Shown in pieces: positions 7,413 through 49,165 of a DNA stretch of 56,250 bases; the stretch's first letter is position 1; each line of letters opens with the position of its first letter. A program made the translations under genes and the position numbers. Origin of the DNA: Burkholderiales bacterium (lineage in GTDB: Bacteria > Pseudomonadota > Gammaproteobacteria > Burkholderiales > Casimicrobiaceae); NCBI GenBank assembly GCA_025354165.1, contig JANXNI010000070.1, positions 1 through 56,250 on the forward strand, read 5' to 3'. The notes beneath the pieces are model-generated. The model was not told where the DNA came from and ran no database searches. It was given only the letters and a program-made list of their open reading frames with translations.

Positions 7413-7526
7413 ACCTTTTCGACAAAACAACGACTGAACTACGGCTATAGCGCCAAATCGCTAAAAGTCGCTATTGATCTATTCGTAGCCCCAGCCCCTA
7501 TGCAATAAGGCATCTATAGAAAAGCT
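7413..7526. repeat. 114-bp palindromic repeat, family 1 copy 1
   Basis: The element begins ACCTTTT and ends AAAAGCT. Its right arm (7491-7526) carries CCAGCCCCTATGCAA, close to the family inner motif CTAGCCCTCATGCA. The left arm is more worn (CTACGGCTAT in place of GAGGGCTAG). The length is exactly 114 bp, as in the other four copies. It lies between the convergent dabA and tamB genes and could fold as a bidirectional terminator. Confidence 0.65.
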
Positions 7527-7535
7527 GTTACGACG

Positions 7536-10500
7536 TCATCGCGACGATTTTTCGAAAGGTGATCGATCCCAACGCAGCGTCCAGAACAAATCAATCGCCG
7601 ATTCTTCACCGGATTGGGCGCGGACATTCAGGCTGTTGTTGATGCGGTAAATGAGCTGCAACGTGCCCGTCGTGGCCTTCAGCCCGCGCTCGTAACCGAC
7701 GTAGAGGCGATCTGATATTTGTTTGCCGATGGTGACCACGGTGTCTTTTGTGGTGCCGCTGTTGGTCGCGACGCCAAGCGTGTCGAGACCGAACTTGCTG
7801 CTGATGCTTTCACCATCACCTGAAAGCAATGCGAACGCCGCCTTTTGCACGAGCACCGTGTCATCGCGACTCAGGTTATCCGAGCTTTTGCCCAGCACCA
7901 GCATCGCCAGTTTTTCGGTGTCTGCGCGATCCGGGTCGGCGTAGAGTTTGATGCGCGGCGCCAGCGCCGTGCCCGTGATTGCAACGCCGACGGTTTGGTC
8001 CGGATCGCTTCGGGCGCGGAGAGCCAGAATATCGAGGCGCGGATTGCTCAGATTGCCGGTGAAAGCAATCTGCCCGCGATCAATTTCAAGATCCTGTCCG
8101 TAAGCGCGATAGGTGCCGCGCACGGTGCGAACGTTACCGTTCGCGGCGAGTTGACCGCCCGGCGTCGTAAGCCTCAGTTGCCCGGCGAGGCGTGTGTTAA
8201 TACCGCGACCTTTCAGTTGAAGATCGCTGCCTAGATCGAGCGCTAGATCAACGTCGATCCTGGTCTTGCGCGGTGGCGTGGATGAGGACGAGACCGCCTG
8301 CAATTCCGCAGCAGTAGGCGTCCGTTTTACGTAAACGTCATCTGAAAGCGTCGGCGCATCGGCCTGAGAGATGTCAAACAATCCACGATCTACTTTAAAG
8401 TTGCCGTCGAGCCTGATAGCGTCATTGTTAGCGCTCAAACGCGCCGTACCGCTGACATCGACGCGACGATCCACTCGACCTAGTAGGCGGAAGTTCTCGG
8501 CCTTCAGCGTGAGTTGCACGTCCGGTTTGGTCGAGAGCGTTCCCTTGCCGTCCACCGTAATTCGGCCATCGCCACCGCGCGCGCTGACAGCCTCAAGTTG
8601 CACCTGATCGCCAACAAAAACCACGCGCCCGCGACCTTCAATCAGGTCAACGCCTTCGAGCGAATTTTTGACGCTCAAGTCGTTCAATGCGAGCGCACCC
8701 TGACCGTTCGGATTGCCGACCGTGCCGCTGAATTTCGCTTCGCCATTGAGCCCGCCGCCTACCCGCCAACCCGGCGGCAGGAAACTGCCCCACGCCGCGA
8801 GATTGTCGAGTCGGGCGGTAAGTTTGCCGTCGAGCGGTGACGACATGGGTGGGAATAAGTCTTGCGCCGATGCTGTGATGTTTGCCGTCGCTTCGGCGCG
8901 CCCAACGCGTTCGCCATCGATAATTTGTGACACGCGCCAGATGCCTTGTTCGGCATTCACCGCGAATTTAAGTTCTCGCAGTCCGAGCAACCCCGAGCCT
9001 GTGTTATCGCCGATGCGCAGGTCGCCCGATTGCCGCGTAAGTTCCAGCGTAGCGCGTGTTCCGCTGTCTGTAGACACGGCAAATCGTCCCGCCAACACCA
9101 AGTCGCCGTCGAGATTTTTGCCGCCCAATTGACGCTCAAGCGCAACCACGTTGAATGGGCCGATATTGCCCTTGCCAGAAAATTTTGGCGTGGATTGTGC
9201 GGGGCTCGCAGCGGTGTATTGCAGCGCCGACCAGTGAAGCGGCACGGTTGCGATGACAGCGTTTCCAGCATCCGCAGCAAATGTGCTGCCGGAAGTCGGC
9301 GTGCCACTTTTCCAGCGCAGCGTGAACGGCTCGACGCGCGCCAAGACTTGCTGAGCCGCGCCTTCGCGGGCAGCGGCCTCGTTGACCTGCAAGCGCTCTA
9401 TCGTGCCAGTCCATGCCGCAAGCGCACTGCTCGCCGTACTTTCACTTCGCCCCGCCAGCGCCGCACTCAATTGCAAATGGCGATCACCCTGTTCCAGCGT
9501 TCCCGTGGCTTCGATGCGATGTTCACGCAGACTGCCTTTGCCTTGCAGATTCAGCGAGCCGACAGCGGCGTTTGCCGCTGCGCCGTTGCTAATTCCGTCA
9601 GCGCTGACATCAAGATTGAAAGGGGCGTCGGGTTGCAACGCAACCTGCAATTTGCCCGCGAATTTCTGCACGCGAAGGGTCGCTTGCGCCACATCCTGTC
9701 CGCTCACGCTGGCGTCAACCGCAAGCGCGTTCCACGCACCCGAAAGTGTGCCCTGACCTTTGATCACGCCACTTAGCGTCGCTTTGCTGGCTTCTTCGCC
9801 TTTACGCGGCATCTGATCCAACGCCTGCAATGCACTCAGATTCTGCGCATCAAGCGACCAAGTGAGCACGTCGCTCGCAGCGCCCAGCCGACCACTCCAT
9901 TGCGCTCGGTTGCTGGCGAGCACGAGATTGCCGCTCGTCTCGATGCGTGGCGGCAGGTTCAGCGCATCTGCTGGTCCTAGCAGCACCAGTTTCGCCTCCC
10001 CCGTCAGCGGTTGCGTACCCCAACGACTGTCCTTGACGGTCACATCGGCACTTAAGGCGACGGGTTTCGTCGGTGCTGCCGGGTCAACGATGGCATTGGC
10101 CTTGATGCCACCATTCAGCACTGCGCTCTGGGCGGCACCGATGGGTGGCGGAATAAACGCGAACGGGTCAAACTTTGACCACTGTGTGTCGGCGGTCACG
10201 CGCCAAGGCCGGCTTGTTTTCGCTGTCGTTGTCGCACTGGTGTTGGCAGCAGCGTCACGCTCGGCAACCAGCGTCCCCCGGATTTGGGCGGCTCCGGTGA
10301 CAACGCTTAGTTCGCTCAACTCAATGCGTAATTGCTGAATTCTTCCGGTAATGTTGACGTCGACGCCCGAACGTAAGCCCGTCGGCACGCGCTTCTGATC
10401 AATGAGTGCGGCGAGGGCGGTGCCTTTGAGGGTGGCTTTTAGTGCGATTGGTTTGAGCGCCGTTGTGTCCTCTCCGGAAGCGGTTACTCGCCCTGCCACC

Positions 10501-26421: not shown

Positions 26422-26560
26422 CTCTGAAAATTCATTTGTAGGGATGCAGTCTTAGGAACCCGGAGCGCAGCAACCGCCGCGCTGGAGCGTGAGCGTGAGC
26501 GCTTTTGGCAAATAGGCGAGTGCCTCGCGAAGACACAATGGCCAGAGAAATGAATTTTTC
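26422..26560 (+). repeat. MITE-like repeat, family 2 copy A
   Basis: A worn, internally shorter copy (about 139 bp) of the element seen at 42943 and 47412. The left end is CTCTGAAAATTCATTTG; the right end reads ACACAATGGCC...ATGAATTTTTC. It shares the inner stretches GGATGCAGT, CGGAGCGCAGCA and GAGCGCTTTTGGCAAAT with the other copies. The right terminal repeat contains the mutY start codon, so the element overlaps the coding region by 23 bp. Confidence 0.75.
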
Positions 26561-27587: not shown

Positions 27588-27605
27588 AGCGGTCTACTCG
27601 TAATC

Positions 27606-27719
27606 AGCTTTTTCGCGTAATCGCCATTGCATTTGGGCTAGAAGCAATAATCAGCGCTAGTCGACTATTGCACGTTTCATCACGTAGCCCCTAATCCAGC
27701 GAGCTTTCAGCAAAATGCT
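27606..27719. repeat. 114-bp palindromic repeat, family 1 copy 2
   Basis: The left arm runs from AGCTTTTT (27606) to TTTGGGCTAG (ending 27641). The right arm runs from GTAGCCCCTAA (27684) to AAAATGCT (27719). The centre carries GTCGACTATTGC. The length is 114 bp, as in the other copies. It fills the gap between the convergent mutY and lipoprotein genes. Confidence 0.75.
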
Positions 27720-27759
27720 GTGCTTGTCAAACGCCTCGCAGGCGACGCGTAGCAAAGCG

Positions 27760-30828: not shown

Positions 30829-32328
30829 ATGAACTCGCAATCCTTTGACCACAGTCGCCCGCCGAACCACAGCAACAATCGCGTTGATCTCGCGCAAATT
30901 GCCAAACAGGCAATGACCGATCGCGGGCTGGAGCCGGAATTTTCGCCCGCTGTCGAAAAAGAGATGGCGCAGATTACCGGCCCTTCCCACGAGCAAGGCC
31001 CAGATATTCGCGATCAGACAAAACTGCTCTGGTGTTCCATCGACAATGATGATTCTCGCGATCTCGATCAGCTCTCGGTGTCCGAGACGTTGCCGAACGG
31101 TGCCACCAAAATTCTTGTCGCCATTGCCGACGTTGATGCGCTCGTTAAAAAGGGCACTGCGATTGACGATCATGCGCATAACAACACGACCTCGGTTTAC
31201 ACCGCTGCGCGAATTTTCCCGATGTTGCCGGAGCAATTGTCGACCGATTACACCTCGTTGAACGGCGGCGAAAAGCGACTGTCCGTGGTGACCGAAATGG
31301 TGTTCGACGCCAATGGTGAAATGACGGCGACCACCTGTTACCGCTCGCTCGTTTTTAATCACGCCAAGCTTGCGTACGACTCGATTGCGTCATGGCTAGA
31401 CGGTCAGGGCGAATTGCCCGAGGCAGCGCGCTCAGTGCCCGGAATGGACGCCCAGCTCCGCGTACAGGACGCGGTTGCCCAGAAGCTGCGGCAGAAGCGG
31501 CGTGAGAACGGCGCGCTGGAATTCGAATCGATTGAAGCGAAGGCCGTATTCGAAGGCGATCAGGTCGTGCGGCTCGATGTGCAAGCGCACAACCGTGCGC
31601 GGCAACTGATTGAAGAGTTCATGATCGCCACCAATCAGGCGACTGCGAAATTTTTAACTGAAAAGGGTTTTGCGTCGCTGCATCGCGTAGTGCGCTCGCC
31701 CGAGCGCTGGCAAAAGATTGTCGACGTTGCGAAAGAGTTCGGCGAAGTGCTGCCACCGGAACCCGAATCAAAAGCGCTGGAAGATTTCCTCGTACGCCGT
31801 CGCGCGGCTGATCCCGTGCGCTTTCCCGATCTGTCGCTCACCATTGTCAAGCTCATGGGTGCGGGCGAATACGTGATCGACAAGCCGGGCAGCGCTGGCA
31901 TCGGTCATTTCGGACTTGCGGTGCATGACTACGCGCACTCTACGGCGCCCAATCGCCGCTTTCCAGACCTCGTCACGCAACGTCTGGTGAAAGCCGCGTT
32001 CGTCGGCGCGCCATCGCCGTATTCCGACGCCGAACTGTTCGCGCTCGCCAAGCATTGCAGCGAACAGGAGGACGACGCCAACCGGGTGGAGCGTCAGGTG
32101 CGCAAGTCCGCCGCCGCGTTGCTGCTCGCCTCGAAAATCGGCCAAAGCTTCGACGCCATCGTCACCGGCGCGTCGGATAAAGGCACGTGGGTACGGGTGT
32201 TTTCGCCGCCCGTTGAGGGTCGATTGGTGCAGGGCTATGAAGGCTACAAGGTGGGCCGCAAGCTTCACGTCGAACTGGTCGGCGTGAATGTCGCCAAAGG
32301 CTTCATTGACTTTGTGCGCCGTGATTAA
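30829..32328 (+). CDS. Short RNB-domain (RNase II/R family) ribonuclease
   Basis: A 499-residue protein with the RNB 3'-5' exoribonuclease domain and a C-terminal S1-like domain (about residues 440-499). It lacks the usual N-terminal cold-shock domains. The metal-binding loop IDNDDSRDLDQL (71-82) keeps D72, D78 and D80, but has Gln81 where RNase II and RNase R have a fourth Asp. Later motifs (AHNRARQLIEEFMIATN, HDYAHSTAPNRRFPDL) are intact. This matches a distinct short RNB subfamily rather than the main rnr gene. ATG at 30829 is preferred over the frame opening at 30748. It is divergent from the kinase. Confidence 0.85.
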   Translation: MNSQSFDHSRPPNHSNNRVDLAQIAKQAMTDRGLEPEFSPAVEKEMAQITGPSHEQGPDIRDQTKLLWCSIDNDDSRDLDQLSVSETLPNGATKILVAIADVDALVKKGTAIDDHAHNNTTSVYTAARIFPMLPEQLSTDYTSLNGGEKRLSVVTEMVFDANGEMTATTCYRSLVFNHAKLAYDSIASWLDGQGELPEAARSVPGMDAQLRVQDAVAQKLRQKRRENGALEFESIEAKAVFEGDQVVRLDVQAHNRARQLIEEFMIATNQATAKFLTEKGFASLHRVVRSPERWQKIVDVAKEFGEVLPPEPESKALEDFLVRRRAADPVRFPDLSLTIVKLMGAGEYVIDKPGSAGIGHFGLAVHDYAHSTAPNRRFPDLVTQRLVKAAFVGAPSPYSDAELFALAKHCSEQEDDANRVERQVRKSAAALLLASKIGQSFDAIVTGASDKGTWVRVFSPPVEGRLVQGYEGYKVGRKLHVELVGVNVAKGFIDFVRRD

Positions 32329-32669
32329 CAGTCGCTAAACGCGACTGATCCGTGCGGGATCTCTGGCGAGCTTTTCAGCGAATTCGCTGGCTCTGCCTCC
32401 ACCGTCATGCTTGGCGAGCAAGCGGCTTTTGCATGGGTGTGTGATCAATACCGTCGATTTGTGGCGAAGTCAGCTTTCCGCTACAAACCTTTCTTTATGA
32501 GGGCTAGCAGCAAAAAAGTACATATGTCGACAATTGCCATTTATTGCGTCTAGCCCTCGTGCAGACGTACTTTAAGTGCAAAGCTAATATGGAGCAGCGA
32601 CTCGGACGTACTCCTGCAACGCCCACCGGAACAGAAACAAGCCATGATTGCCTGCGCCGAAATGACCGC
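32329..32669. other. 341-bp convergent intergenic region
   Basis: The gap separates the converging RNB and ThDP-enzyme genes. Its recognisable content is the 114-bp family 1 repeat at 32472-32585. The remaining about 140 bp on the left and 80 bp on the right show no open frame with good coding character, no tRNA and no further repeat. Confidence 0.6.
32472..32585. repeat. 114-bp palindromic repeat, family 1 copy 3
   Basis: This is the best-preserved inner stem. GAGGGCTAG (end of the left arm) and CTAGCCCTC (32550-32558) are perfect 9-bp complements, and the ends AGCTTT and AAAGCT are also complementary. The two 36-bp arms match at 24 of 36 positions when one is reverse-complemented. The centre holds ATATGTCGACAATTGCC. 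It sits between convergent genes. Confidence 0.8.
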
Positions 32670-34310
32670 CTAGTGCTTGATGTTCGGCGCTGGAAGGCCT
32701 TCGATAAAGACGTTGACACAAGCCGGTTTGCGCGAGGCGACAGCGCGTGCGACTGCGGGTTTCATCTGGTCTGCCGAACTCACGCTTTCGCCGTGCGCGC
32801 CAAACGCGGCTGCCACCTTGTCGTAGTGCGAGGGCAACAATTCGCAACCAATCATGCGCTCTCGCCCATAGTCGCGCAACTGAATCTGATATTCGGCATT
32901 CCAGCGTGCGTCGTTGCCGATCACCATGACGAACGGCAACCCGTAGCGCACAGCGGTATCAAACTCCGAGCAATGAAAACCGAAGGTGCCGTCACCCATG
33001 ACCGCAACAATCGGCGCGTTGGGCAAAGCCACGCGTGCCGCGAGCGCAAACGGGAGCGCAGCGCCAATGGCACCGGCGACACCGTTAATCACACGATGCG
33101 GCGCACTCAGAAGCGCTTGTGCCCACTGTCCGATCTCACCACCATCGGAAATGAACACCGCGTCCGGGTGGCCGTCGAGCAGGGCTTGCAGCGGAGCCAA
33201 AGCCTGCACTGGATGCAATCGATCCGGCATGTGGCTCTTCGCCGTAGACCACGCGGATGGACGATACGCGATCGACGTTTTGACTTTCTGGAACCACGCA
33301 GGTGAGCCGCTCGGGTTCCACAGGTGCGACAACGTCAACGCGTCGACGGCTGAGGCTGCATCGGCAATCGTTACGACTTCGAGTCGCGAACCGAGCGCTT
33401 TAATCGCGCGATCAATTTCACTTTGTTCTGAATCAATTTGCAGCCAGGCGCAGTTCGCGGCAAAGGTCGGCGTCGAGCCAAACTTGAGCGTGAAATCCAG
33501 CGGCTTACCGAGCAGCAAAGCGCAATCACTCTCGGCCAAACATTCCGCAAATGCGCCCAGACTCGGATCGGTTACGCCGCGCGGACTTTCCATGCCAACG
33601 ACAGGGATTCCAGACGCCGCTTCAAGCGCGGCAACTCGTTCGCGATGCGCAAGCGTCAAGCTCGCGGGACCGGTGAGAATTAACGGGCGCGATGCCGTGG
33701 CAAGTCGCTTCGCGATGGCATCTGCGTCAGTGCCGCTTATCGGCAACGCCTGTGCGGCAAACGCGTCTGGTGACGGCAACGCAGCGCTGGTCGTCGCTTC
33801 TAGTACATCCGAAGGCAGACTCAAATGAACCGGCCCTGGACGTCCTGATTTTGCGATGCGGATGGCTTTGGCCATATCGGCGGCAATCTCATCGACGCTC
33901 ATGCACGTCCACGACGCCTTGCACAAAGGCGCGGCTAAATCGGCTTGGCGCATTTCCTGAAATGCGCCCTTGCCCAGTTGCGAAATGGGCGCATGACCGG
34001 ACAGCAACACCACCGGGGCTTCGGCCATTTTTGCCGTGTAGAGCGCCGAGATGGCATTGGCATGGCCCGGCCCGCCGGTAACGAGCGCGATACCGACCTC
34101 GCCGGTGATGCGCGCAAAGGCATCGGCCATGTGAACGGTCGCCGCTTCATGACGTGTGTGAATCAGTTCAATGTCGGTCGCAAACGCCGCGTCGAAGACG
34201 GGCATGATGTGATTGCCTGAGAGCGTGAAGACCTTTTTAACACCAGCCAGCAAGAGTGTTTGAATAAGGGCGTCTGCGCCGCGAACGGCTGAATTTTGCG
34301 GTGATGACAT
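32670..34310 (-). CDS. Thiamine-diphosphate-dependent enzyme (acetolactate synthase-like)
   Basis: A 546-residue three-domain ThDP enzyme of the acetohydroxyacid synthase / decarboxylase / 2-hydroxyacyl-CoA lyase superfamily. Glu55 in HTRHEAATVHMA activates the cofactor. The Mg/ThDP motif begins GDGTFGF at residue 439 and ends at IGNDARWN. No regulatory-subunit gene is adjacent, and its place as the last gene of a dicarboxylate-type operon argues against a branched-chain amino acid role. It more likely decarboxylates or cleaves a 2-oxo or 2-hydroxy acid made upstream. The substrate is not determinable. It follows the flavoprotein gene after 23 bp. Confidence 0.82.
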   Translation of the reverse strand: MSSPQNSAVRGADALIQTLLLAGVKKVFTLSGNHIMPVFDAAFATDIELIHTRHEAATVHMADAFARITGEVGIALVTGGPGHANAISALYTAKMAEAPVVLLSGHAPISQLGKGAFQEMRQADLAAPLCKASWTCMSVDEIAADMAKAIRIAKSGRPGPVHLSLPSDVLEATTSAALPSPDAFAAQALPISGTDADAIAKRLATASRPLILTGPASLTLAHRERVAALEAASGIPVVGMESPRGVTDPSLGAFAECLAESDCALLLGKPLDFTLKFGSTPTFAANCAWLQIDSEQSEIDRAIKALGSRLEVVTIADAASAVDALTLSHLWNPSGSPAWFQKVKTSIAYRPSAWSTAKSHMPDRLHPVQALAPLQALLDGHPDAVFISDGGEIGQWAQALLSAPHRVINGVAGAIGAALPFALAARVALPNAPIVAVMGDGTFGFHCSEFDTAVRYGLPFVMVIGNDARWNAEYQIQLRDYGRERMIGCELLPSHYDKVAAAFGAHGESVSSADQMKPAVARAVASRKPACVNVFIEGLPAPNIKH

Positions 34311-34333
34311 CGGATGAGCGGGTGTGTGAGTAA

Positions 34334-36058
34334 CTATTGAGTGATCAGGCTCTCGCCCGGTTTGATGCGGGTGAAAACGACACGCTCGGTGGCGAGAGTG
34401 AGCTTTTCGCCGACCTGACGAACGAGCGTGTAACTCGACGTTGGCAGATCCCCGGTATCCGGAAAGTCTTCACGGAAATGCGCGCCGCGCGAATCTTCCC
34501 GAGCGATCGCAGCGATCACGATCGCGCGGCTGACCGCGATCAAACTGCGCAGATTTAGCCAGTCGTGCCAGCTCAAATTGAAGGCATGTGTATCGCCGTT
34601 CACGCCGGTGCGATTCAATTCTTGCTGTAGTCCCGCGAGGCTTGAATCGGCCCGCGCGAGCCCGCCTGCGGAGCGTGCGATGCCAACGTCGTCCCACATG
34701 ATTTCGTAGAGCGCTTCACGCAGCGCGTTGGTGTTGCCATGAGGTCGTGAAAACGGCGCTTCGTGTTCACCGACGACTTGAGCGATCGCCTCTGCGTCCG
34801 GTTCGCGAAATGCGCCGTGCGTCGCGACCCACGCGGCCATGCAGTCGCCCGCAATGCCGCCGTAAACCGTTGAATTGGCCACGCCGTTGCCACCCAGACG
34901 ATTGGCACCGTGTACGCCACCGGTGTCTTCGCCAGCGGCGAAAAGCCCCGGAAGTGCGGTCGACGTGTCGCCAGAAAAAACGACGCCGCCCATCATGTAA
35001 TGCGCTGTCGGCACGACTTCAACGCGGCCACCCGCCAGATCAAAACCACAGTCTGCACAGCGCTCCACCATGCCTTTAAAACTGTTGCGAACAGTGTCGA
35101 CGCCGAGATGTTTCATCTCGATGAACACGCCACCGTTCGGCGACGTGCGGCCCGCGCGCATCTCGGAGTTAATGCTGCGCGAAACAATGTCACGCGTCGC
35201 GCGCTCGCCGCGAGGATCGTAGTTGTGCATGAAGCGCTCGCCATTGCCGTTGAGCAGGTAGCCGCCCGCACCGCGCAAGCCCTCTTCGAGCACCGTACCC
35301 GTCATGCGCGTGCCCGTTCCGGCGAGGAGTCCTGTGGGATGAAACTGCACCATCTCCATGTCGCGCAACGCGAGGCCCGCATCGAGCGCCATCGACAGAC
35401 CATCGCAGCTTTTTTCACCGCTCGGCGTGTGGTACTTGTACATCGTCGGGCCACCGCCGGTGGCGAGCAGTACCGCTTTTGCCTGCACGAACACAAAGCC
35501 GCCCGTGCGCAAATCAATCATCAAAACGCCAGCCAGCGCATCACCCGAGCGCGTCTTGATGAACGCAATGGCGCGATGCTCCTCCATGCGCTCGATTTTT
35601 CGTGCCCACACCTGCTCTGCCAGGCGATTGATGATCTCGATGCCGGTCTGATCACCTTTGTGAACGGTACGATCAAACGTTTGCCCGGCGAATGCTTTTT
35701 GATGCACGGTGCCGTCGGGATTGCGATCAAAGAAGCAGCCAAGTTCGTTTTCAAGTTCGTGAATGCGTTCGACCGCTTTGGTCACCAGCGTCCACGCCAG
35801 ATCCTGATCGGGCAACCACTTGCCGCCCTCAATGGTGTCCTGAAAATGTCGTTCGACCGAGTCACCCGCCGCCAGCGCAACGTTGTAACCGCCCTGCACC
35901 ATGCGCGTACAGCCGCTCTTTCCGAGCAGACCTTTCACAGCGACCGTGATCCGCAATTCGGGCGACGCCTGATGCGCGTGCAGCGCGGCGAACAAGCCGG
36001 CCCCGCCCGAGCCCAGAATCAGTATGTCCGTTTTGCGGTACTGAATATCGGGCTTCAA
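34334..36058 (-). CDS. Succinate dehydrogenase/fumarate reductase-like flavoprotein
   Basis: A 574-residue FAD subunit with the dinucleotide-binding motif GSGGAG (16-21), substrate-site segments QFHPTGLL and VVPTAHYMMGGV, and GANRLGGNGV. In SdhA/FrdA a histidine in the SHTV motif binds FAD covalently; here the aligned segment reads KSGCTRMVQGG with Cys50, so FAD is probably non-covalent. It is separated from its likely iron-sulfur and membrane partners by three other operon genes. It overlaps the hydratase beta subunit by 4 bp. The substrate may be succinate or a substituted succinate. Confidence 0.88.
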   Translation of the reverse strand: MKPDIQYRKTDILILGSGGAGLFAALHAHQASPELRITVAVKGLLGKSGCTRMVQGGYNVALAAGDSVERHFQDTIEGGKWLPDQDLAWTLVTKAVERIHELENELGCFFDRNPDGTVHQKAFAGQTFDRTVHKGDQTGIEIINRLAEQVWARKIERMEEHRAIAFIKTRSGDALAGVLMIDLRTGGFVFVQAKAVLLATGGGPTMYKYHTPSGEKSCDGLSMALDAGLALRDMEMVQFHPTGLLAGTGTRMTGTVLEEGLRGAGGYLLNGNGERFMHNYDPRGERATRDIVSRSINSEMRAGRTSPNGGVFIEMKHLGVDTVRNSFKGMVERCADCGFDLAGGRVEVVPTAHYMMGGVVFSGDTSTALPGLFAAGEDTGGVHGANRLGGNGVANSTVYGGIAGDCMAAWVATHGAFREPDAEAIAQVVGEHEAPFSRPHGNTNALREALYEIMWDDVGIARSAGGLARADSSLAGLQQELNRTGVNGDTHAFNLSWHDWLNLRSLIAVSRAIVIAAIAREDSRGAHFREDFPDTGDLPTSSYTLVRQVGEKLTLATERVVFTRIKPGESLITQ

Positions 36059-36675
36059 GCTGAAACGCCCAGACTCGCCAGCGCGGCGGCACGACGATCT
36101 GCTACAGACGCATTCACGGTGTCGTAAAGCGACCCGCCATTCGAGTCCATCGCAACAAGCAAAGGCCCAAAACCGGCAGGTTCACGCAGTGCAAATTTCC
36201 AGAGTGATTCGGGGTTGAGGTCATCCAGATCAACGTCCTCGATTTGCGCGATCCACGTCGTTTCAAGTGCGGCTGTGCCACCGACGATCGCCAGATAAGC
36301 GCCGCCCAGTTCGCGAAACGCCGCCAGCGACCCGTCCCGCATGCCGCCTTTACCGATGATGAAGCGCGCACCCGTTTGCGTCATGAGCTGGCGCGTGAAG
36401 CGCTCCATGCGGTCACTGGTCGTGGTGCCAATGCAAACCGCCGCATAGCCCGCAGGATACTCCGGCGATACCGGCACTTTTTTAACGTTGGGTGCCGTGT
36501 GAATCACCGCATGTCCGTTCAAATCAAAACGCGTTGTTCGCTGCCGGTCGAACAGCGCGATGTAGCTCGCGTCGCGTATACCGAACAGCGTGTCGTGCAG
36601 TGTCACCGTGTCGTTAATACGAAGCTGGCGTACATCGGCTTCGCTGACTGGCATGTGCAAATCGTAATGCGCCAT
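36055..36675 (-). CDS. Class I fumarase/tartrate dehydratase family, beta subunit
   Basis: A 206-residue C-terminal-type subunit of an iron-sulfur hydro-lyase, the mobile swivel domain that completes the active site. Family motifs are TVTLHDTLFGIRDA near the start, the GKGGM turn, and AYLAIVGGTAALE. ATG at 36675 is chosen because it lies 2 bp after the alpha subunit stop and the domain starts at once. The open frame to 36741 only extends back into the alpha gene. It could be fumarase, L(+)-tartrate dehydratase or mesaconase-like. Confidence 0.88.
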   Translation of the reverse strand: MAHYDLHMPVSEADVRQLRINDTVTLHDTLFGIRDASYIALFDRQRTTRFDLNGHAVIHTAPNVKKVPVSPEYPAGYAAVCIGTTTSDRMERFTRQLMTQTGARFIIGKGGMRDGSLAAFRELGGAYLAIVGGTAALETTWIAQIEDVDLDDLNPESLWKFALREPAGFGPLLVAMDSNGGSLYDTVNASVADRRAAALASLGVSA

Positions 36676-36677
36676 GA

Positions 36678-37553
36678 TCAGTATCCAAATGCGACGCCGT
36701 TGGGCGTAAACGTAGCGCGCGCGCGTCGTGCCGAATGGCATTGCATATTCACGGCCACGGGATTCATGGTGATGTGCGTCGCGGCCAATTCAACGTGCAC
36801 CGCAAACGCCGTAGCGTCGCCGCCCAATCCTTGCGGCCCGACGCCCAACAAGTTAACGGCTTTGGACAGAGATGCTTCCAGTGCGGCGCCGTCGGCATCG
36901 CCGCACGTTGAGCCAAGAGGACGTGTTGCGGCACGCTTGGCCAGATGCACGCACAAATCTGACGTGCCACCGACGCCGACACCGACAATGGTTGGCGGGC
37001 AGGTCTTGCCACCAGCGGCAATCACACAGTCGACGACGAAGCGTTTGATTGCATCGATGCCTTCGGCCGGTATAGCCATCCGAAGAAACGAATTATTCTC
37101 AGAGCCACTGCCCTTCGGAATCATTTCTATCTCGACCGTCTCGGCACGTTCATCAAATTCAAAGTGGATGACGGGAACGCCGATGCCACCGCTGGTGTGT
37201 TCGTTCTTGCGCGTCAGCGGATGCACGACCGACGAGCGCAGCGGGTGCTCTTGGGTGGCGCGCGTGCAGCCGCGAACGAGCGCTGCCTTTAGCGCCGCGC
37301 CGTCAAAGCTCACATTGGAACCGATGACCACGTTGTAGATGGGAATGCCTGTGTCCTGACACAACAAATTATCGGTCTGCTCCGCGACGGCGATGTTGGT
37401 CACCATCGTGCGCAGCACCGACTTTGCGGTGGCGTCGGTCTCTCGCGCCTGCAAGCGCGTCATACCTTCCTTGATATCGGGCGGCAGTGATTTGAGCGCG
37501 CGGATGTAGAGCGTTTTAGCGGCCTCTTCAACCGCAGTCATGTCAAGCTTCAT
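36678..37553 (-). CDS. Class I fumarase/tartrate dehydratase family, alpha subunit
   Basis: A 291-residue catalytic subunit carrying the labile [4Fe-4S] cluster of class I hydro-lyases. Likely ligands are C65 (CQDTG), C185 (KTCPP) and C272. Their spacing resembles TtdA (recalled C71/C190/C277). It begins 3 bp after the Bug receptor stop, and the beta subunit follows after 2 bp. It would interconvert an unsaturated dicarboxylate and its 2-hydroxy form; which one cannot be decided from sequence. Confidence 0.9.
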   Translation of the reverse strand: MKLDMTAVEEAAKTLYIRALKSLPPDIKEGMTRLQARETDATAKSVLRTMVTNIAVAEQTDNLLCQDTGIPIYNVVIGSNVSFDGAALKAALVRGCTRATQEHPLRSSVVHPLTRKNEHTSGGIGVPVIHFEFDERAETVEIEMIPKGSGSENNSFLRMAIPAEGIDAIKRFVVDCVIAAGGKTCPPTIVGVGVGGTSDLCVHLAKRAATRPLGSTCGDADGAALEASLSKAVNLLGVGPQGLGGDATAFAVHVELAATHITMNPVAVNMQCHSARRARATFTPNGVAFGY

Positions 37554-37556
37554 AAG

Positions 37557-38549
37557 TTACTGCTGCTGAATCTTTCGTTCGCGAACAATCTTTGCCCAGT
37601 TAGCACTTTCGGCACGGATCGCTTCTGCGAACTGGCCTGGCGTATTGGCCACCGGCACCATGCCCACAGCGATCAGCCGCTGCTTCATATCGTCGGTTCG
37701 AAGTGCCTTGGCGGCGTCACGCTGGATTTTCTCGACGATATCTTTCGATGTTCCGGCCGGGGCAAGAAGTCCAAACCACCCCACGTTCACAAAACCAGGC
37801 AAACCGGCCTCAGCGACCGTCGGAATATCAGGCGCGGCCGGGCTGCGTTCGGCACCGGTCACGCCGAGCGCCCGTACCTTACCGCTCTTGATGAAAGGAA
37901 GCATTGCCGCCAGATTGCCCGGCACCATCTCAACGCTGCCACCGGCCACGTCGGTCAGCGCGAGCGACTCGCCTTTGTACGGCACATGCTTTAGATCGAT
38001 ACCGGCACTGTAGAGAAAGTTCTCGCCCGCCATATGAACCTGACTTCCGACGCCCGCAGAACCGAAGTTCAGCACGCCCGGTTTGGTCTTGGCCAGCGCG
38101 ATGAACTCGGTCACGTTCTTTGCCGGTACGTTTGGATTCACGACAATCACCATCGGCCCTGAGGCGACGTTGGTGATTGGCACAAAATCCTGTACGGCAT
38201 CAAACGGCATCTTGGCGTAGATATGCGGGTTGACTGTCAGGATCGAACCCGACGCCATCAACAGCGAATAGCCGTCGTTTGCAGACTTGGCGACGTCGGC
38301 AGCACCAATATTGCCACCCGCGCCCGTCTTGTTTTCGATGATAACGGTCTGACCCCACGCTTCCTGCAGTCGTTGGCCCAGAATGCGCGCTACGACATCG
38401 GTAGTGCCGCCGGCGGGAAATGGCACCACAATGCGCACCGGTTTGCTCGGCCATGCCTGCGCGAACGCACTGCTGCATGCCAACGTGGTGGCGACTGTTA
38501 GCGCGACCGTCAGCGCACTCTTTACGAAATTCCTGCGAATCATTCGCAC
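37557..38549 (-). CDS. Bug-family periplasmic solute receptor (TctC type)
   Basis: A 330-residue periplasmic binding protein of the tripartite tricarboxylate transporter family. The signal peptide (about residues 1-31, ending AFAQA) is followed by WPSKPVRIVVPFPAGGTTDV, the standard Bug opening. The conserved GVLNFGSAGVGSQVHMAGE segment, which contacts the ligand carboxylate, is also present. No TctA/TctB membrane genes are nearby, which is usual for orphan Bug proteins. Its place in the operon suggests it captures the pathway's di- or tricarboxylate substrate. Confidence 0.9.
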   Translation of the reverse strand: MRMIRRNFVKSALTVALTVATTLACSSAFAQAWPSKPVRIVVPFPAGGTTDVVARILGQRLQEAWGQTVIIENKTGAGGNIGAADVAKSANDGYSLLMASGSILTVNPHIYAKMPFDAVQDFVPITNVASGPMVIVVNPNVPAKNVTEFIALAKTKPGVLNFGSAGVGSQVHMAGENFLYSAGIDLKHVPYKGESLALTDVAGGSVEMVPGNLAAMLPFIKSGKVRALGVTGAERSPAAPDIPTVAEAGLPGFVNVGWFGLLAPAGTSKDIVEKIQRDAAKALRTDDMKQRLIAVGMVPVANTPGQFAEAIRAESANWAKIVRERKIQQQ

Positions 38550-38564
38550 TCCTCCTTATTTTAT

Positions 38565-38939
38565 TTAAACCACCATTAGCGCGGCAAGCAGGATTGCAAC
38601 CGACAGGGTTGTCCCCACCATTGCCGCAATCCAGCTAATGCGTATTCCGCGCCACGGCGCAAATTCGATCAGCAACAAGCGGACCCCACCGACCAGATGA
38701 GCAGCGAGTAGACACACCAATCCCCACTCGGCAAACTTGAATAGCGCGGTATCAGTCCAGCGCAAGAAGGAGTTCAGCGCGACTTCGCCTTGAAGACTCC
38801 TTGACAGCGCCCAGAAGTGCACCGGAATAAATAAGGCAAGGCCAACGCCGGACAACCTGTGCACGACAAACGCCCAGTAACCGGGCATGCCGCGCGCACG
38901 AAAGTCATTGCGTCGGGCCGAGTTCGCGCTAGCCGCCAT
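38565..38939 (-). CDS. Succinate dehydrogenase-like cytochrome b subunit
   Basis: A 124-residue membrane protein with three hydrophobic helices and the SdhC-type signature VVHRLSGVGLALFIPVHFWA, plus a second conserved His in AAHLVGGVRLLL that may ligate haem b. ATG at 38939 overlaps the previous anchor gene by 11 bp. The frame is open to 39005, but that extension is basic and not family-like. It should anchor the iron-sulfur/flavoprotein pair and pass electrons to quinone. Confidence 0.82.
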   Translation of the reverse strand: MAASANSARRNDFRARGMPGYWAFVVHRLSGVGLALFIPVHFWALSRSLQGEVALNSFLRWTDTALFKFAEWGLVCLLAAHLVGGVRLLLIEFAPWRGIRISWIAAMVGTTLSVAILLAALMVV

Positions 38940-39270
38940 ACAGTCCCCATACCGCCGAGAAGCCGGTAAAAACAAGCACTGCTGCAAATACCGATAGCAG
39001 CGCATTCAGTGAACGCCCTCGCCACTGCAGCCACTCTTCGGCAATGCGGGCCAGACCGATCGGCGCGTGAATCGCGGCGCTCAAAACAAACAGGACGTAG
39101 AACGCAGCGAAAGCGAAGTTGCCGCGCGTTCGGCCAAGAATTTCCGCGCCCGTCAGTCCGCCGCGTACGGCATACAGAATGGTGATGATGTGCACGACCA
39201 CGCACAGCGCCAACACCATTGCGCTGATGCGTTGGGCATACCAAAGTTTCGCCTGAGTCGCCGCGCTCAA
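38929..39270 (-). CDS. Fumarate reductase/succinate dehydrogenase-like membrane anchor
   Basis: A 113-residue protein with three predicted membrane helices. The segment AFYVLFVLSAAIHAPIGLARIAEEWL has the His/Arg pattern of small SDH/FRD anchor subunits, with His90 as a possible haem ligand. It lies between the iron-sulfur gene (4-bp overlap) and the second anchor (11-bp overlap), so a two-anchor complex is likely. Confidence 0.8.
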   Translation of the reverse strand: MSAATQAKLWYAQRISAMVLALCVVVHIITILYAVRGGLTGAEILGRTRGNFAFAAFYVLFVLSAAIHAPIGLARIAEEWLQWRGRSLNALLSVFAAVLVFTGFSAVWGLYGG

Positions 39271-39992
39271 TCGAGCTCTCCGCGAATCGCCGCCCGAGCG
39301 GTGATGCGTTTCAGACCGCTAATGCCTAGTGTCGGGGCGATGCCTTTTGGACAGCGCTCGGAACAGCTCGTATGCGTGTGGCAGGCGTGACATCCCGAGT
39401 CTCCAGCCACAGCTTGCAAGCGCTCGCGGCCGGCAACGTCGCGTTCATCATTCACCAGCGTCCATGCGCGATTAAGTGCCGCTGGGCCGAGATAATCAGG
39501 TCGCCACGTTACGGTATCGCACGAGGCGTAACACACGGCGCAGCCGATACATTCAATGCCCGCATCGGCGGCTTTACGGGCCGCTGAGCTCGGCGATACG
39601 TTCGCGAAGTCCTGATGACGTGTGCGCTCACCCCGAAACTGCCCTTTAGCGCCTGCCCATTTGTCAAAAAACGTACTCATGTCGGTCGCCAGGTCTTTAA
39701 CAACAGGCAAATTGGACAGCGGCGCGAGTTCAAGCGCGCCGTTGACTGCCACCTTTGACACATGGGTGCGACACGTCCAGCGCGCCACTCCGTTCACGGT
39801 CATGGCGCACGAGCCACACATACCGACGCGACACGAAAAGCGATAGCTCAACCCCGGGTCAATCGTGCGTTGAACGTAGGTGACCACATCGAGCACGGTC
39901 TGACTGTCAAGGCGAGGCACGTCATAGCTGACGAATTGACCGTCCGCCTGTCCGCGCCAGATGCTTACTTTCAATGTCTCAGTATTCAACAT
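39267..39992 (-). CDS. Succinate dehydrogenase/fumarate reductase-like iron-sulfur subunit
   Basis: A 241-residue electron-transfer subunit. The N-terminal ferredoxin domain has the [2Fe-2S] motif CRVGMCGSC with a later Cys in RWTCRT. The C-terminal domain has CIGCAVCYASC and CHACHTHTSCSERCPKG for the other clusters, matching SdhB/FrdB. It is the first gene of the operon, downstream of a palindromic operator shared with the divergent LysR gene. Its flavoprotein partner is encoded three genes beyond the two anchors. Confidence 0.9.
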   Translation of the reverse strand: MLNTETLKVSIWRGQADGQFVSYDVPRLDSQTVLDVVTYVQRTIDPGLSYRFSCRVGMCGSCAMTVNGVARWTCRTHVSKVAVNGALELAPLSNLPVVKDLATDMSTFFDKWAGAKGQFRGERTRHQDFANVSPSSAARKAADAGIECIGCAVCYASCDTVTWRPDYLGPAALNRAWTLVNDERDVAGRERLQAVAGDSGCHACHTHTSCSERCPKGIAPTLGISGLKRITARAAIRGELD

Positions 39993-40038
39993 GCAATCAT
40001 TATCGGCCAGTCAATCCCATAGTAAAAGCGATTAATAG

Positions 40039-40056
40039 TTCTTTCATACGAAAGAA
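40039..40056. promoter_or_regulatory. Palindromic operator between the SDH-like operon and its LysR gene
   Basis: TTCTTTC, ATAC, GAAAGAA: a perfect 7-bp inverted repeat with a 4-bp spacer, in the 94-bp gap between divergent start codons (39992 minus, 40087 plus). The size and placement match a LysR-type activation/recognition site, here 31 bp before the regulator's start. Binding by the adjacent regulator is inferred. Confidence 0.6.
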
Positions 40057-40086
40057 AAACTAAGCAATTGGACGTGTGTAAACCCT

Positions 40087-40971
40087 ATGCCATCGATCCG
40101 TGTTCTAAAGACATTCCTTGTCGTTGCGCGTACCGGCAGTTTCGCTGCGGCTGGGGGCGAAGTCGGGCTGACGCCAGCCGCTGTGGGATTGCAGGTGCGA
40201 TCGCTGGAGGAAGACATAGGTCGCAAACTGTTTGACCGTGTTGGACGCTCGATCATTCTCAACACGCAAGGGCGTGAATTGGTGCCAGCAGCGCTTGATC
40301 TGGTCAGCCGTTATGCGGCGCTCTCCGCGTCCGCTACGGAGGGCCTGGCCGGAACGGTTGTGATGGGTGCGCTGGTTTCGGCGCTGATGGGCGCGTTTTC
40401 TGGCGCGCTATGGCACATGAAGCGCGATTATCCCGCGCTGGACATCAAACTCTTCGCGGGCATGTCGGCTGATTTTGTGACGCGCGTGGAACGCGGCGAA
40501 CTCGACGCGGCAGTGACGACGCAGCCGCCGCGCGTGCTGCCAGCGGCGCTCAAATGGAGATCGCTTTATTCCGAACCAATGGTGCTCATCGTGCCAACGC
40601 GGCCTCACTTTGAGCTCACGGATGATCCGTTCGAGATTTTGCGCTCGGCGCCGTTTTTACGGTTTGATCGCTCAACCTGGACGGGCGATCTGGTGACGCG
40701 TGTGCTCTCACGAGCGCGGGTCACCGTGGTCGAAGGGCTCGAAGTGAACTCGGTGGAAACCATTGTGGCACTAGTGCGCCAAGGATACGGCGTGTCCATC
40801 GTGCCGAAGCTGGACAACGTCCAATGGCAGCGGGACAGCCAGCTAAAAATCATCGATATCCCCGGCAATTCACTGGACCGGAAAGTCGGACTACTTGAGC
40901 GAACCGATCATTCGCGCATGCAATTCACGTCGGCGATCAAGGAACACTTCCGTTTTCGCCGACAAAAGTAG
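40087..40971 (+). CDS. LysR-family regulator of the SDH-like operon
   Basis: A 294-residue LysR-type regulator with an N-terminal winged helix-turn-helix (about 5-62; GSFAAAGGEVGLTPAAVGLQ) and a two-lobed effector domain (about 90-290). It is divergent from the iron-sulfur gene and shares an 18-bp palindromic site with it, so it most likely controls that operon in response to its substrate. It ends 69 bp before a family 1 repeat and converges with hppD. Confidence 0.88.
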   Translation: MPSIRVLKTFLVVARTGSFAAAGGEVGLTPAAVGLQVRSLEEDIGRKLFDRVGRSIILNTQGRELVPAALDLVSRYAALSASATEGLAGTVVMGALVSALMGAFSGALWHMKRDYPALDIKLFAGMSADFVTRVERGELDAAVTTQPPRVLPAALKWRSLYSEPMVLIVPTRPHFELTDDPFEILRSAPFLRFDRSTWTGDLVTRVLSRARVTVVEGLEVNSVETIVALVRQGYGVSIVPKLDNVQWQRDSQLKIIDIPGNSLDRKVGLLERTDHSRMQFTSAIKEHFRFRRQK

Positions 40972-41040
40972 CGCGTCGAGCTGGTTTCAACCTGCGGCGT
41001 TGGCGTCGGATGTTCTCAATCAGACATTTGCGAAAGTATC

Positions 41041-41154
41041 AGCTTTTGGCTACAAGCGCTGCTGCATTGGGTCTGGTAGCCAGAAAGTACATTTATCGAC
41101 ATTCGCACTTTCTGCAATTTAGCCCTCATGCAGCGGTGTTTATACGAAAAAGCT
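41041..41154. repeat. 114-bp palindromic repeat, family 1 copy 4
   Basis: The left arm starts AGCTTTTGGCTACAAG and the right arm ends ACGAAAAAGCT. GCTGCAT in the left arm pairs with ATGCAGC in the right arm, and the centre holds ATCGACATTCGC. The length is again exactly 114 bp. It lies between the convergent LysR and hppD genes, close to the hppD stop codon. Confidence 0.78.
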
Positions 41155-41181
41155 ATAACAATAGCGACGCCGTTAAGTTGC

Positions 41182-42261
41182 TTACCCCGTCAACACCCCG
41201 CGCCGAATTTGATCGAGCTCGATTGATTCGAACAACGCCTTGAAGTTGCCTTCACCGAAGCCCTGATTGCCTTTGCGCTGAATGATCTCGAAGAAGATTG
41301 GGCCGAACAGGTTTTGCGTGAAGATTTGCAACAGCATGCCAGAGTCTTCGGGCGCGCCGTCGACCAGAATATTGAGCGCTTGCAGTTTGGCAACATCCTC
41401 ACCGTGGTTCGGAATGCGCGTTGGCAGTTGCTCGTAGTAAGTCGCAGGCGTCGTCTGAAACGGTACCGATTTCTTGGCGAGCGCTTCAACCGTGATGTAA
41501 ATGTCTTTCGCGCCAAATGCGACGTGCTGGATGCCTTCACCGTGATACGCGTGCAGGTATTCCATGATCTGCGATTTGTCGTCGCTCGACTCATTGATCG
41601 GAATGCGAATCTTGCCACAGGGGCTGGTCATCGCCTTGCTTTTCAGGCCCGTCAGCTTGCCTTCGATATCGAAATAGCGCACTTCCTTGAAGTTAAACAG
41701 GCGCTCGTAAAAGCCCGCCCACTCGTCCATGCGGCCGCGATGCACGTTGTGCGTCAGATGATCGAGGTAGGTAAGGCCCGCACCTTCAGGAATGCGCGGC
41801 GCACCGGCAATCGGCACAAAATCGATATCGTAAATGGTGACGTTGTTGCCATTGCCTTCGTAGCGATCCACGAAGTAAAGCAGCGAGTCGCCAATGCCCT
41901 TGATCGCGGGAATGTTCAGCTCCATCGGACCTGGCTTCATGTCGACGCCCCACGCGCCCGAATCCACGGCGCGCTTGTACGCAAACGCAGCATCCTTCAC
42001 ACGAAACGCAATCGCGCAGATCGAAGGACCATGCACCCGCGCGAAGCTCTGCGCGAATGAACCGGGCTCGGCGTTCAGGATGAAATTGATGTCGCCCTGC
42101 TTGTAGAGCAACACATTCTTCGAGCGATGTTTGGCGACGGCGGCAAAGCCCATCTGCTCAAACAGTTGGCCCATCGCCACGGGATCCGGCGCGGCGAATT
42201 CGATGAATTCGAAGCCGTCGGTGCCCATTGGATTGTCCCAAGTCTGAAATTGCGATGTCAT
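41182..42261 (-). CDS. hppD: 4-hydroxyphenylpyruvate dioxygenase
   Basis: A 359-residue non-haem iron enzyme that converts 4-hydroxyphenylpyruvate to homogentisate in tyrosine catabolism. The iron ligands are visible as His168 (LDHLTHNV), His246 (GIQHVAFG) and Glu325 ([18 protein letters not shown]), and the C-terminal gating helix ([16 protein letters not shown]) is complete. Homogentisate dioxygenase and later genes are not in the window. It is divergent from an Lrp-type regulator, a common pairing. Confidence 0.96.
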
Positions 42262-42347
42262 CTGAGTGGCCTTTTCGTTGTGCTTTCGCTGTGCGTCGGC
42301 GTTGCGTGTAAATTTTCAGACTAAGTTTTATCTCAAGCGCTACGCAA

Positions 42348-42406: not shown

Positions 42407-42427
42407 AACAATAAGGGCACGTAAGTC

Positions 42428-42895: not shown

Positions 42896-43253
42896 GAAGC
42901 GCACATCGTCGGGGAGCGTGCGCAGAAACGGGGGCGGGTGTAGGGCACCTCTAAAAATTCGTTTTTGGGATGCAGTGTTAGGAGCCCGGAGCGCAGCAGC
43001 CTTCGCTCCCGCCCTGGTACGTGAGCGCTTTTGGCAAATGCGCGAGCACCGTGCGACGACACAATGCGCCCCACAAATGAATTTTTAGAGGTGCCCTGTT
43101 GTGAATGTGATTTCCGGATCGAGCGGATACCCTGCCCAAGAGTCGTAGGGGTTGCCTCTTTTCGACAATATGGGCTTAATTAGGGTGATCGTCTTTCCTG
43201 AAGCATCCCTGTTTATTCCGTAGCGCGACCCTACTCCCAAGTGCATTCAACGC
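42896..43253. other. 358-bp gap upstream of the PAS-GGDEF-EAL gene
   Basis: The gap contains the intact family 2 repeat (42943-43096) and then about 157 bp leading to the GGDEF-EAL start, which should hold its promoter. A weak open frame on the minus strand through the repeat is not considered a gene. No RNA gene is recognised. Confidence 0.5.
42943..43096 (+). repeat. MITE-like repeat, family 2 copy B (intact)
   Basis: A 154-bp element bounded by near-perfect terminal inverted repeats: GGGCACCTCTAAAAATTCGTTT on the left and the complement AAATGAATTTTTAGAGGTGCCC on the right, one mismatch in 22. The inner sequence includes GGATGCAGTGTTAGGAGCCC, GGAGCGCAGCAG, TTTTGGCAAATGCGCGAGC and GACGACACAATGCGCCCC. 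It encodes no transposase. The ends and size fit a non-autonomous mobile element. Confidence 0.8.
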
Positions 43254-45350: not shown

Positions 45351-45463
45351 ACCAGATCACCATTTAATGGGCTACTTTGCCTCTTCGTTTGATGTTTTGC
45401 ACACCGTAATCCCGTGCCCCATGCCCGTGTTGTTTTTGACTTGCACTTTTAACTGTCCTCTGC

Positions 45464-46168: not shown

Positions 46169-46188
46169 CGTTCTTTAACGCCAAGCAG

Positions 46189-47409: not shown

Positions 47410-47411
47410 GG

Positions 47412-47566
47412 GGGCATGTCTAAAAATTCATTTGTGGGGCGCATTGTGTCGTCGCGCGGTGCTCGCGCATTTGCCAAAAGCGCTCACGTACCAGGGCGGG
47501 AGCAAAGGTTGCTGCGCTCCGGGCTCCTAACACTGCATCCCCAAAAATGAATTTTTAGAGCTACCC
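47412..47566 (-). repeat. MITE-like repeat, family 2 copy C
   Basis: A near-intact copy in the opposite orientation to copies A and B. The plus-strand left end is GGGCATGTCTAAAAATTCATTT and the right end is AAAATGAATTTTTAGAGCTACCC. The inner sequence matches copy B over most of its length when reverse-complemented. It abuts phaZ with 2 bp between its end and the start codon. With copy B it forms an inverted pair enclosing about 4.3 kb. Confidence 0.8.
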
Positions 47567-47694
47567 AAAGGTCGCTGGACAGTGAAAGGAGTGTTTTGTA
47601 CAGGCAAGTTGCGGGCCAATGGCGGCGCTTTTGTGTGAGGGCGGCGCGATGGCACGTCGCTTGCTGCACCGGGCTTCAATCTTCCGAGGTTCCT

Positions 47695-48495: not shown

Positions 48496-48514
48496 GGCAG
48501 ATCGTGGGAGCGGC

Positions 48515-48937
48515 TTATTTCCACGGGGTAGCCGCGGGCACCTCGCAAAACGGCTCAATATCCACGCTCTTGAAATCCGCAGGAGACACAATCTCCAGAT
48601 ATTCCATGTCTTCTGAATAGTCAAAAAGATAGTGCGCAATACCCGGCCGCTGATGCACCACGTCGCCCGCCTCGACTAGCGTCTCTTTGTCCTCGTACAT
48701 GAACTTGGCCCAGCCTTTGGTCATGATCACGATCTGAAAATCTGCCTCATGTTTGTGCCAGCCGGTTCCCGTTTCTGGTGCCATGTTCGCCTTCACAAGG
48801 TGCGCGATGACCTTGCCGTTAGTCGCCTCGGCGATGCCCAGATCACGATAAAGGAAAAAATCGCGCAATCCGCCGGGCACGAATTGAGTGTCGGCAGGCT
48901 TGACGTGAGAAAAGCTGGTTTCGGTGCGTTTGAGCAT
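48515..48937 (-). CDS. Single-domain cupin protein
   Basis: A 140-residue small beta-barrel protein. The motifs GTGWHKHEADFQIVIMTKG (about residues 56-74) and AGDVVHQRPGIAHYLFDYS (about 90-108) are the two cupin motifs, with His residues and a Glu suitable for a metal. ATG at 48937 is preferred over 48982 because AGGAGAG precedes it. The substrate is unknown; similar proteins include small oxygenases, isomerases and sensors. It converges with the GST gene and has a family 1 repeat upstream. Confidence 0.8.
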   Translation of the reverse strand: MLKRTETSFSHVKPADTQFVPGGLRDFFLYRDLGIAEATNGKVIAHLVKANMAPETGTGWHKHEADFQIVIMTKGWAKFMYEDKETLVEAGDVVHQRPGIAHYLFDYSEDMEYLEIVSPADFKSVDIEPFCEVPAATPWK

Positions 48938-49051
48938 GGCCTCTCCTGATGCTGGTGCGTAAATGGTGCGCTGCACAAACATGCATTTATCGTTCCAGAT
49001 CGGGCTGCGGCCGGGTTTGGCGAAGGCATCGCCATCACTCGGCCAGTCAGT

Positions 49052-49165
49052 AACTTTTCCATGAAAGCCTTATTTAACGAGGGCTGGACCACTAATAGGC
49101 CAATACTCGACTTTAGGCGAAATCATCGTCTAGCCCTTATGCAATGGTTGTTGCAGGCCTAAGTC
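49052..49165. repeat. 114-bp palindromic repeat, family 1 copy 5
   Basis: The left arm starts AACTTTT and ends GAGGGCTGG (49087). The right arm starts CTAGCCCTTATGCAA (49130) and ends AAGTC. The centre has ACTCGACTTTAGGC. The length is 114 bp. The outer ends have drifted, but the inner stem is clear. It lies between the amidase stop and the cupin start (both minus), the only copy not between convergent genes. Confidence 0.7.

Follow-up and report, generated by a model that had tools for sequence, protein, structure and literature searches.

A genus-wide family of ~120-bp dyad-symmetric repeats, candidate protein-binding sites of a Burkholderiales chromosome

Introduction

ERIC and Correia-type miniature inverted-repeat transposable elements (MITEs) are intergenic, imperfect palindromes of ~105-155 bp whose copies are close in sequence. 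The palindromic matS and parS sites are bound by proteins, measure ~13-16 bp and have functions on the scale of the chromosome. Here we analyse a 56,250-nucleotide stretch of DNA (the window; contig JANXNI010000070.1 of assembly GCA_025354165.1) from a Burkholderiales bacterium of the Casimicrobiaceae, which holds five copies of a 114-bp palindromic repeat. Going by their general descriptions, ERIC and Correia-type elements are similar to these repeats in size and location, but our sites share only a motif. matS and parS are likewise palindromic, whereas the sites described here span ~120 bp and are dispersed over many contigs.

REPINs contain invariant 16-mers, commonly show compensatory changes and are linked to RAYT transposases (PMC3116915). 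Together with BIMEs they resemble our sites in their hundreds of intergenic copies, their two inverted units with a spacer and their overall length. We looked for an invariant core, compensatory changes and a RAYT link in the sites and found none of these, and the sites also differ in being evenly spaced. The DNA gyrase motif of E. coli is ~130 bp long, symmetric and degenerate, with a periodic GC content that is thought to be read as shape; the enzyme is enriched downstream of transcribed units, and the motif arms have a period of 10.75 bp (PMC6379681). This motif and strong gyrase sites such as the phage Mu SGS and BIME-2 are like ours in their symmetric span of ~120-130 bp and their GC periodicity, but differ in that ours have an 84-bit motif with fixed bases and were found in one genus. 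Type II topoisomerases differ in sequence preference between species; a G at -4 was preferred by all enzymes tested, whereas the preference for G at +1 was variable and drug-linked (PMC12324340). Supercoils have been reported to diffuse within ~10-kb domains of the bacterial chromosome (PMC3420936).

We judge the chance to be about even that each repeat is a copy of a large, putative protein-binding site in double-stranded DNA with a chromosome-organising role.

Results

The five repeats share a strong 120-bp motif. The window's own genome, G000, comprises 4.72 Mb in 97 contigs, and the labels G001-G016 denote other genomes of the same genus. An earlier note on the window described five repeats of exactly 114 bp, all of which are present as claimed and align without gaps:

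7413..7526, no strand: copy 1, dyad at 7469/7470, with ~3 bp of extra motif beyond each end
27606..27719, no strand: copy 2, dyad at 27662/27663
32472..32585, no strand: copy 3, dyad at 32528/32529, the top score among the window copies
41041..41154, no strand: copy 4, dyad at 41097/41098
49052..49165, no strand: copy 5, dyad at 49108/49109, in a tandem gap

Scored with their own symmetrised profile, which is a circular test, the copies reach 95.6-116.2 bits; elsewhere in the window the best score is -11.4, a separation of over 100 bits, and the maxima of five shuffles lie between -12 and -25. The 36-bp arms of the earlier description exist, but they are complementary at only 18, 21, 24, 24 and 20 of 36 positions, so the window copies are weak palindromes. 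Similarly, AGCTTTT/AAAAGCT is the consensus of the ends, although both ends are exact solely in the copy at 41041, and the motif extends ~3 bp past the 114-bp limits on either side. The constant length holds in G000 but is not absolute, because full length varies by 1-2 bp in G005.

Across 123 copies in G000, the motif is dyad-symmetric, spans positions -2 to 117 (120 bp) and holds 84 bits, compared with the ~14.5 bits needed to specify 420 places. It runs from aaCAGCTTTT to its mirror, and outside these limits information is about zero. The half-site consensus is aaCAGCTTTT.gcTGAAA.caC.acTgcAtaGGGGCTA.a.gc.aAWWa.g.caaWWGTC, followed by the dyad, where W is a column holding A or T; G and C are nearly absent from columns 44, 45, 53 and 54. 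Two half-sites of 57-60 bp are opposed at a nearly constant spacing: when the 57-bp half-site was matched by itself, 228 of 240 matches sat in head-to-head pairs, and 104 of 114 neighbouring head-to-head pairs were at exactly 57 bp. Neither the outer nor the middle block was shifted in 152 of 168 G000 half-sites. Blocks rich in A/T (W) and in G/C (S) alternate with an overall W/S period of 9.3-9.4 bp. The arms alone peak near 7.3 bp, a value made unreliable by the 45 positions on which it is based.

The family is abundant and was detected in a single genus. We searched with a sequence-only model from the five window copies (R1) and a multi-species model (R2); random-model thresholds were derived from first-order Markov sequences. 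R1 found many more copies on other G000 contigs, with at least 150 matches (both strands counted), nearly all of them ~114 bp. In 400 kb of stretches picked by position, on contigs already known from R1 matches, there were 35 sites, or 88 per Mb, which extrapolates to ~415 per genome. Twenty further G000 stretches, partly chosen for matches, were kept separate from this estimate.

Across 30 genomes, R1 found the family in 10 (G000 included), all of one genus. With R2, 6 of 250 genomes of the order were positive, all from this genus (1 of 120 genera), and G000 alone was positive among 274 genomes of the class, where stricter filters can miss weak matches. Presence or absence by R1 alone was set aside because R1 misses diverged versions; iterated profiles showed that its lack of matches in G002 and G011, and its mere 2 matches in G007, were false negatives. 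By iterated profiles, G001, G006, G012, G002, G011 and G007 carry the family at ~100-195 matches per Mb, or 101-162 sites per Mb under strict criteria; the densities are rough, since part of the G001, G006, G002, G007 and G011 sequence was chosen for its nearness to homologues of genes in the window. Insensitive searches of plasmid and viral collections (one copy by blastn; one exact pattern) yielded no match, and blastn with one copy recovers few other copies even in G000. The literature on REP, REPIN, gyrase and stem-loops that we covered, thinly where journals require a subscription, describes no such family, which is weak evidence of novelty.

Sites lie behind genes and are evenly spaced. 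Spacing and context were scored on 773 kb from four G000 contigs with 74 sites. Genes were called with our own codon-usage script, and a site overlapping a called gene by at most 30 bp was still counted as in a gap. Two of the contigs, C4 and C79, had been chosen for many R1 matches, which bears on density and not on the spacing null. All but one of the 74 sites are in gaps between called genes, and the remaining one is at a contig end. The fraction of gaps with a site is 28/96 for convergent, 35/450 for tandem and 10/96 for divergent gaps; for gaps of at least 150 bp the fractions are 22/36, 33/131 and 10/60. In 26 of the 28 occupied convergent gaps and 24 of the 35 occupied tandem gaps, at most 40 bp lie between the site and a stop codon. 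Sites in tandem gaps stand at a median of 28 bp behind the upstream stop and 85 bp ahead of the next start.

Four of the five window copies lie between convergent genes by our own open reading frame (ORF) calls, as had been noted, and these four are the only convergent window gaps that measure 100 bp or more. The convergent bias is also seen across the four G000 contigs but not in G005, where 28 strict sites fall in 2 of 51 convergent, 14 of 247 tandem and 8 of 54 divergent gaps, with 4 outside scored gaps. When all 41 G005 matches are placed in gaps of at least 100 bp (3/15 convergent, 17/86 tandem, 8/43 divergent), convergent gaps are again not preferred.

G000 sites are more evenly spaced than chance. 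The 70 distances have a mean of 10.2 kb, a minimum of 2258 bp and a coefficient of variation (CV) of 0.62. Random places or gaps give a CV of 0.94-0.98 and 10-12.5 expected distances below 2 kb, compared with none in G000; orientation-matched gaps give 0.94-0.96 and 9.1-10.5 such distances (p<0.0002 for G000). When sites are counted per 20 kb, under-dispersion is seen in G000 (mean 1.75, variance 0.83; 20 stretches), among strict G005 sites (1.40, 0.67; 20 stretches) and in G011 (2.00, 0.33; n=7), G012 (1.80, 0.70; n=5) and G001 (2.00, 0.67; n=4). Apparent G005 clusters at 66-95 bp offsets turned out to be weak matches: only 28 of 41 pass with both halves scoring, and a half-site scan of the densest stretch (L139) finds lone halves. 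The 13 matches that fail this rule were excluded when context and spacing were scored in G005; had they been kept, the 41 would give a mean of 2.05 per 20 kb and a variance of 3.73.

Sites were not recently copied and keep their positions between species. Among the 123 G000 copies (7503 pairs), mean identity is 0.517 and the maximum 0.693, with no pair above 0.70. In this respect 84 copies resemble independent draws from the motif (maximum 0.693 observed, 0.667 simulated). As a positive control we used a MITE-like repeat of G000 (~155 bp, 12 copies, median identity 0.80); because it reaches 0.95 in the same genome, recent copying of the sites would have shown. Nine edge definitions applied to the 123 sites revealed no consistent target duplication, a test that had no positive control and in which old insertions could have lost the duplication.

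The species compared are at most 83% identical in DNA over long matches. Where synteny could be scored, 8 of 9 G001 sites and 3 of 3 G006 sites have a counterpart site in G000; 11 more sites in each genome could not be scored. At the single G001 site gap that has no G000 site, G000 lacks ~200 bp comprising the site and some flanking sequence, so no clean insertion or excision can be seen there. The 8 orthologous G001 pairs are identical at 0.80 of high-information and 0.42 of low-information positions, compared with 0.70 and 0.33 for unrelated pairs. Copy 5 has its G001 counterpart in the same gap (L211:1231-1344), which keeps 0.81 of the positions with high information and 0.33 of those with low information. 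W/S profiles of seven other species correlate with that of G000 at 0.57-0.95 (best circular shifts, 0.29-0.37), and the G-versus-C correlation is lower than this in 6 of the 7, falling to 0.33-0.34 in G011 and G007. From one species to another individual bases are replaced, but the pattern of A/T versus G/C is in large part retained.

Half-sites of G011, G007 and G002 tend to hold a small palindrome of their own, e.g. GCCTTATGAAATAAGGC or GCCCAATTTAATTGGGC, and the site centres tend towards TTATCGATAA, not GTCGAC (L223-L224 and L238-L244 in G011; L225-L226 and L245-L250 in G007; L222 and L230-L237 in G002).

Synteny with G001 breaks at 5 of 10 scorable site gaps, one of which (C44/C75) is merely a contig end; among site-free gaps no shorter than 100 bp, it breaks at 1 of 16. 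For G006 the fractions are 2 of 5 and 2 of 8. We draw no conclusion from these counts because the sample is small and the four real breakpoints are all convergent gaps. In the window, G000 and G001 part at 27587-27760, 32328-32670 and 40971-41182, which are site-bearing convergent gaps. The 8.3-kb block 32658-40972, flanked by two sites in G000, is placed differently relative to the HPPD gene in G001; in G006 it has a site on either side, the second ~0.8 kb away.

Genes and other features beside the window copies. Copy 1 lies between a DabA gene (end 7389, +) and a TamB gene (from 7536, -). The DabA inorganic-carbon transporter gene occupies 4771-7389 and is preceded by a 547-aa ORF (3131-4774) that may encode a partner. 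Copy 2 separates a MutY-like gene (HhH-GPD and NUDIX domains; end 27587, +) from an OmpA-domain gene (from 27760, -), and copy 3 an RNase II-type gene (end 32328, +) from a gene for a thiamine-pyrophosphate enzyme (from 32670, -). Copy 4 is flanked by a LysR-type gene (end 40971, +) and the HPPD gene (from 41182, -), which likewise has a site behind it in G001 and G006. Copy 5 is 18 bp from the stop end (49184) of an amidase gene (-). The ~155-bp MITE-like repeat, which has terminal inverted repeats (GGGCACCTCTAAAAATTC...), lies at 42943-43097, 47412-47565 and 26422-26561 and also matches in G001, G004 and G006; its first copy has no Rfam match.

Discussion

The size, symmetry, A/T-G/C alternation and position behind genes of these sites favour a protein site around which DNA is wrapped. 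A dimeric or multimeric complex would wrap or bend ~120 bp at each site, reading shape (A/T versus G/C) together with certain bases, among them GGGGCTA and the TCGA at the centre. Seated at the ends of transcription units every ~10 kb, it could anchor or insulate chromosomal loops or, alternatively, absorb the torsion built up by transcription. If the binder changed over time and its sites followed, the base-level motif should differ simultaneously at many loci from one species to the next, which it does.

Several observations weigh against this reading, in which wrapping and domain function are inferred. A longer W/S period than 9.3-9.4 bp would be expected of a DNA wrap. G002 (mean 3.00, variance 3.33, n=7) and G007 (3.50, 4.30, n=6), where the motif models are weaker, show no under-dispersion of site counts per 20 kb. 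In the 3 orthologous G006 pairs only 0.62 of high-information and 0.37 of low-information positions are identical; the low 0.62 arises partly because G006 has a different consensus. A residual excess of complementarity between halves is seen in G001 (z 2.16), G005 (z 3.09) and G007 (z 2.21). In G000, true sites fold slightly better than chimeras of swapped halves (z -2.06), and their mean folding z is -2.46, compared with -1.46 for draws from the profile. Finally, the system seems dispensable, because few or no sites were detected in two genomes: G009 has 8 R2 matches at 4 places and none in 20 kb by profile, and G016 has no R1 match and none in 20 kb by profile. At 2.5-2.6 Mb both are smaller than any other of the 17 genomes listed for the genus; the sites may have been lost with genome reduction, or the family may have arisen after their split. 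The single G009 locus with listed ORFs adjoins genes that we read as TetR-like and phasin-like, and is uninformative.

The sites might instead be strong wrapping sites of DNA gyrase, which wraps 120-140 bp symmetrically and is drawn to the positive supercoils behind transcription units. Gyrase fits only in part, and we consider it unlikely. Site size, dyad symmetry, GC alternation and position behind genes all resemble the E. coli 130-bp motif (PMC6379681), type II topoisomerases differ between species in their sequence preferences (PMC12324340), and the ~10-kb spacing would suit it. If cleavage is assumed at the dyad, position 54 (-2), with A in 59% and T in 37%, agrees in part with the preference for A there, but position 52 (-4) is A in 56% and G in only 6%, and position 56 (+1) is T in 93%, not G. 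The whole-motif period of 9.3-9.4 bp also seems to differ from the 10.75 bp of the E. coli arms, and 84 bits contrast with a degenerate motif. Given the missing -4G, the seemingly different period and the far greater strength of the motif, we favour a candidate dimeric or multimeric DNA-wrapping complex over gyrase. No match was found outside the genus among the sampled genomes, though gyrase is near-universal. An old, immobile, non-autonomous family of the REPIN/BIME or MITE type, retained for some use, would account for the high copy number and the intergenic, palindromic copies, for the two inverted units, each with a small palindrome in some species, and for synteny breakpoints with G001 that are more frequent at site gaps than at other gaps (less clearly with G006). 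Y1-type transposases are present in 12 of 14 genomes scanned, but 21 of 22 transposase loci, with up to ~1.5 kb of flank, hold no site scoring above 12 bits. The other is L271 of G001 (26 bits), and the data do not support a REPIN/RAYT link. The sole Y1-type match in G000 (C58:14400-14648) has an internal stop codon. Since the sites also lack similar pairs, are evenly spaced, keep their positions between species and show strongly uneven constraint, unlike uniform decay, we give a mobile origin a small chance; nor was a consistent target duplication seen, though old insertions could have lost it.

The earlier note had proposed a bidirectional terminator or a structural DNA role, and of these we favour the latter. 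That the sites act as bidirectional terminators between genes is improbable, even though they lie close behind stop codons and are enriched in convergent gaps of G000. A stable hairpin with a T run is not present in most copies: terminator-like elements occur on just 15 of the 148 strands, compared with 6 after shuffling. At gene ends facing a site, such elements are somewhat more frequent than in shuffled sequence, with 20 of 56 in convergent gaps (shuffled, 9) and 10 of 35 in tandem gaps (shuffled, 4), and half of these elements fall within the site; site-free gene ends have them at a similar rate (23 of 76 in convergent gaps; shuffled, 2; 37 of 218 in tandem gaps; shuffled, 14). Moreover, 10 divergent gaps carry sites, stem covariation is not clear and even spacing is left unexplained. 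The same note had suggested selection on the folded shape. A structured RNA, or a cruciform or attC-like element recognised when folded, now seems very remote, and the half-swap test largely refutes it for G000: 28.50 of 57 positions pair, compared with 28.24±0.28 after halves are re-paired (z 0.93, n=123), with no compensatory changes in the arms. Two of the five window copies do fold well (z -4.1 and -5.0), and a small residual excess persists in the pairing of some species and in folding energy. The G005 excess accompanies weak matches (half-score correlation 0.70), and a pooled excess in G002, G007 and G011 (z 6.85) shrank to 1.54, 2.21 and 0.49 when taken per genome. At the gathering score, Rfam finds only a tRNA in the whole window, and the copy at 32472 has just chance-level miRNA matches (E 0.18 and 0.47).

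The protein-bound reading can be taken further, though only tentatively and as one possibility among others. The genus may have a sequence-addressed, chromatin-like system built on several hundred dyad sites of ~120 bp, one for every ~10 kb, that selection keeps apart. A putative dedicated complex would wrap each site and so determine where, behind genes, topological domains end. Site and binder would co-evolve: hundreds of sites would be adjusted in concert, and most of the A/T-G/C shape code would be preserved. To our knowledge, it is an open question whether the boundaries of supercoil or loop domains in bacterial chromosomes are fixed and encoded in the sequence. With an estimated ~400 evenly spaced, conserved, mirror-symmetric sites at about the reported domain size, this question becomes directly testable. 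If true, the differing motif versions found at many loci between species, without copying, would be an unusual case of sites following one binder.

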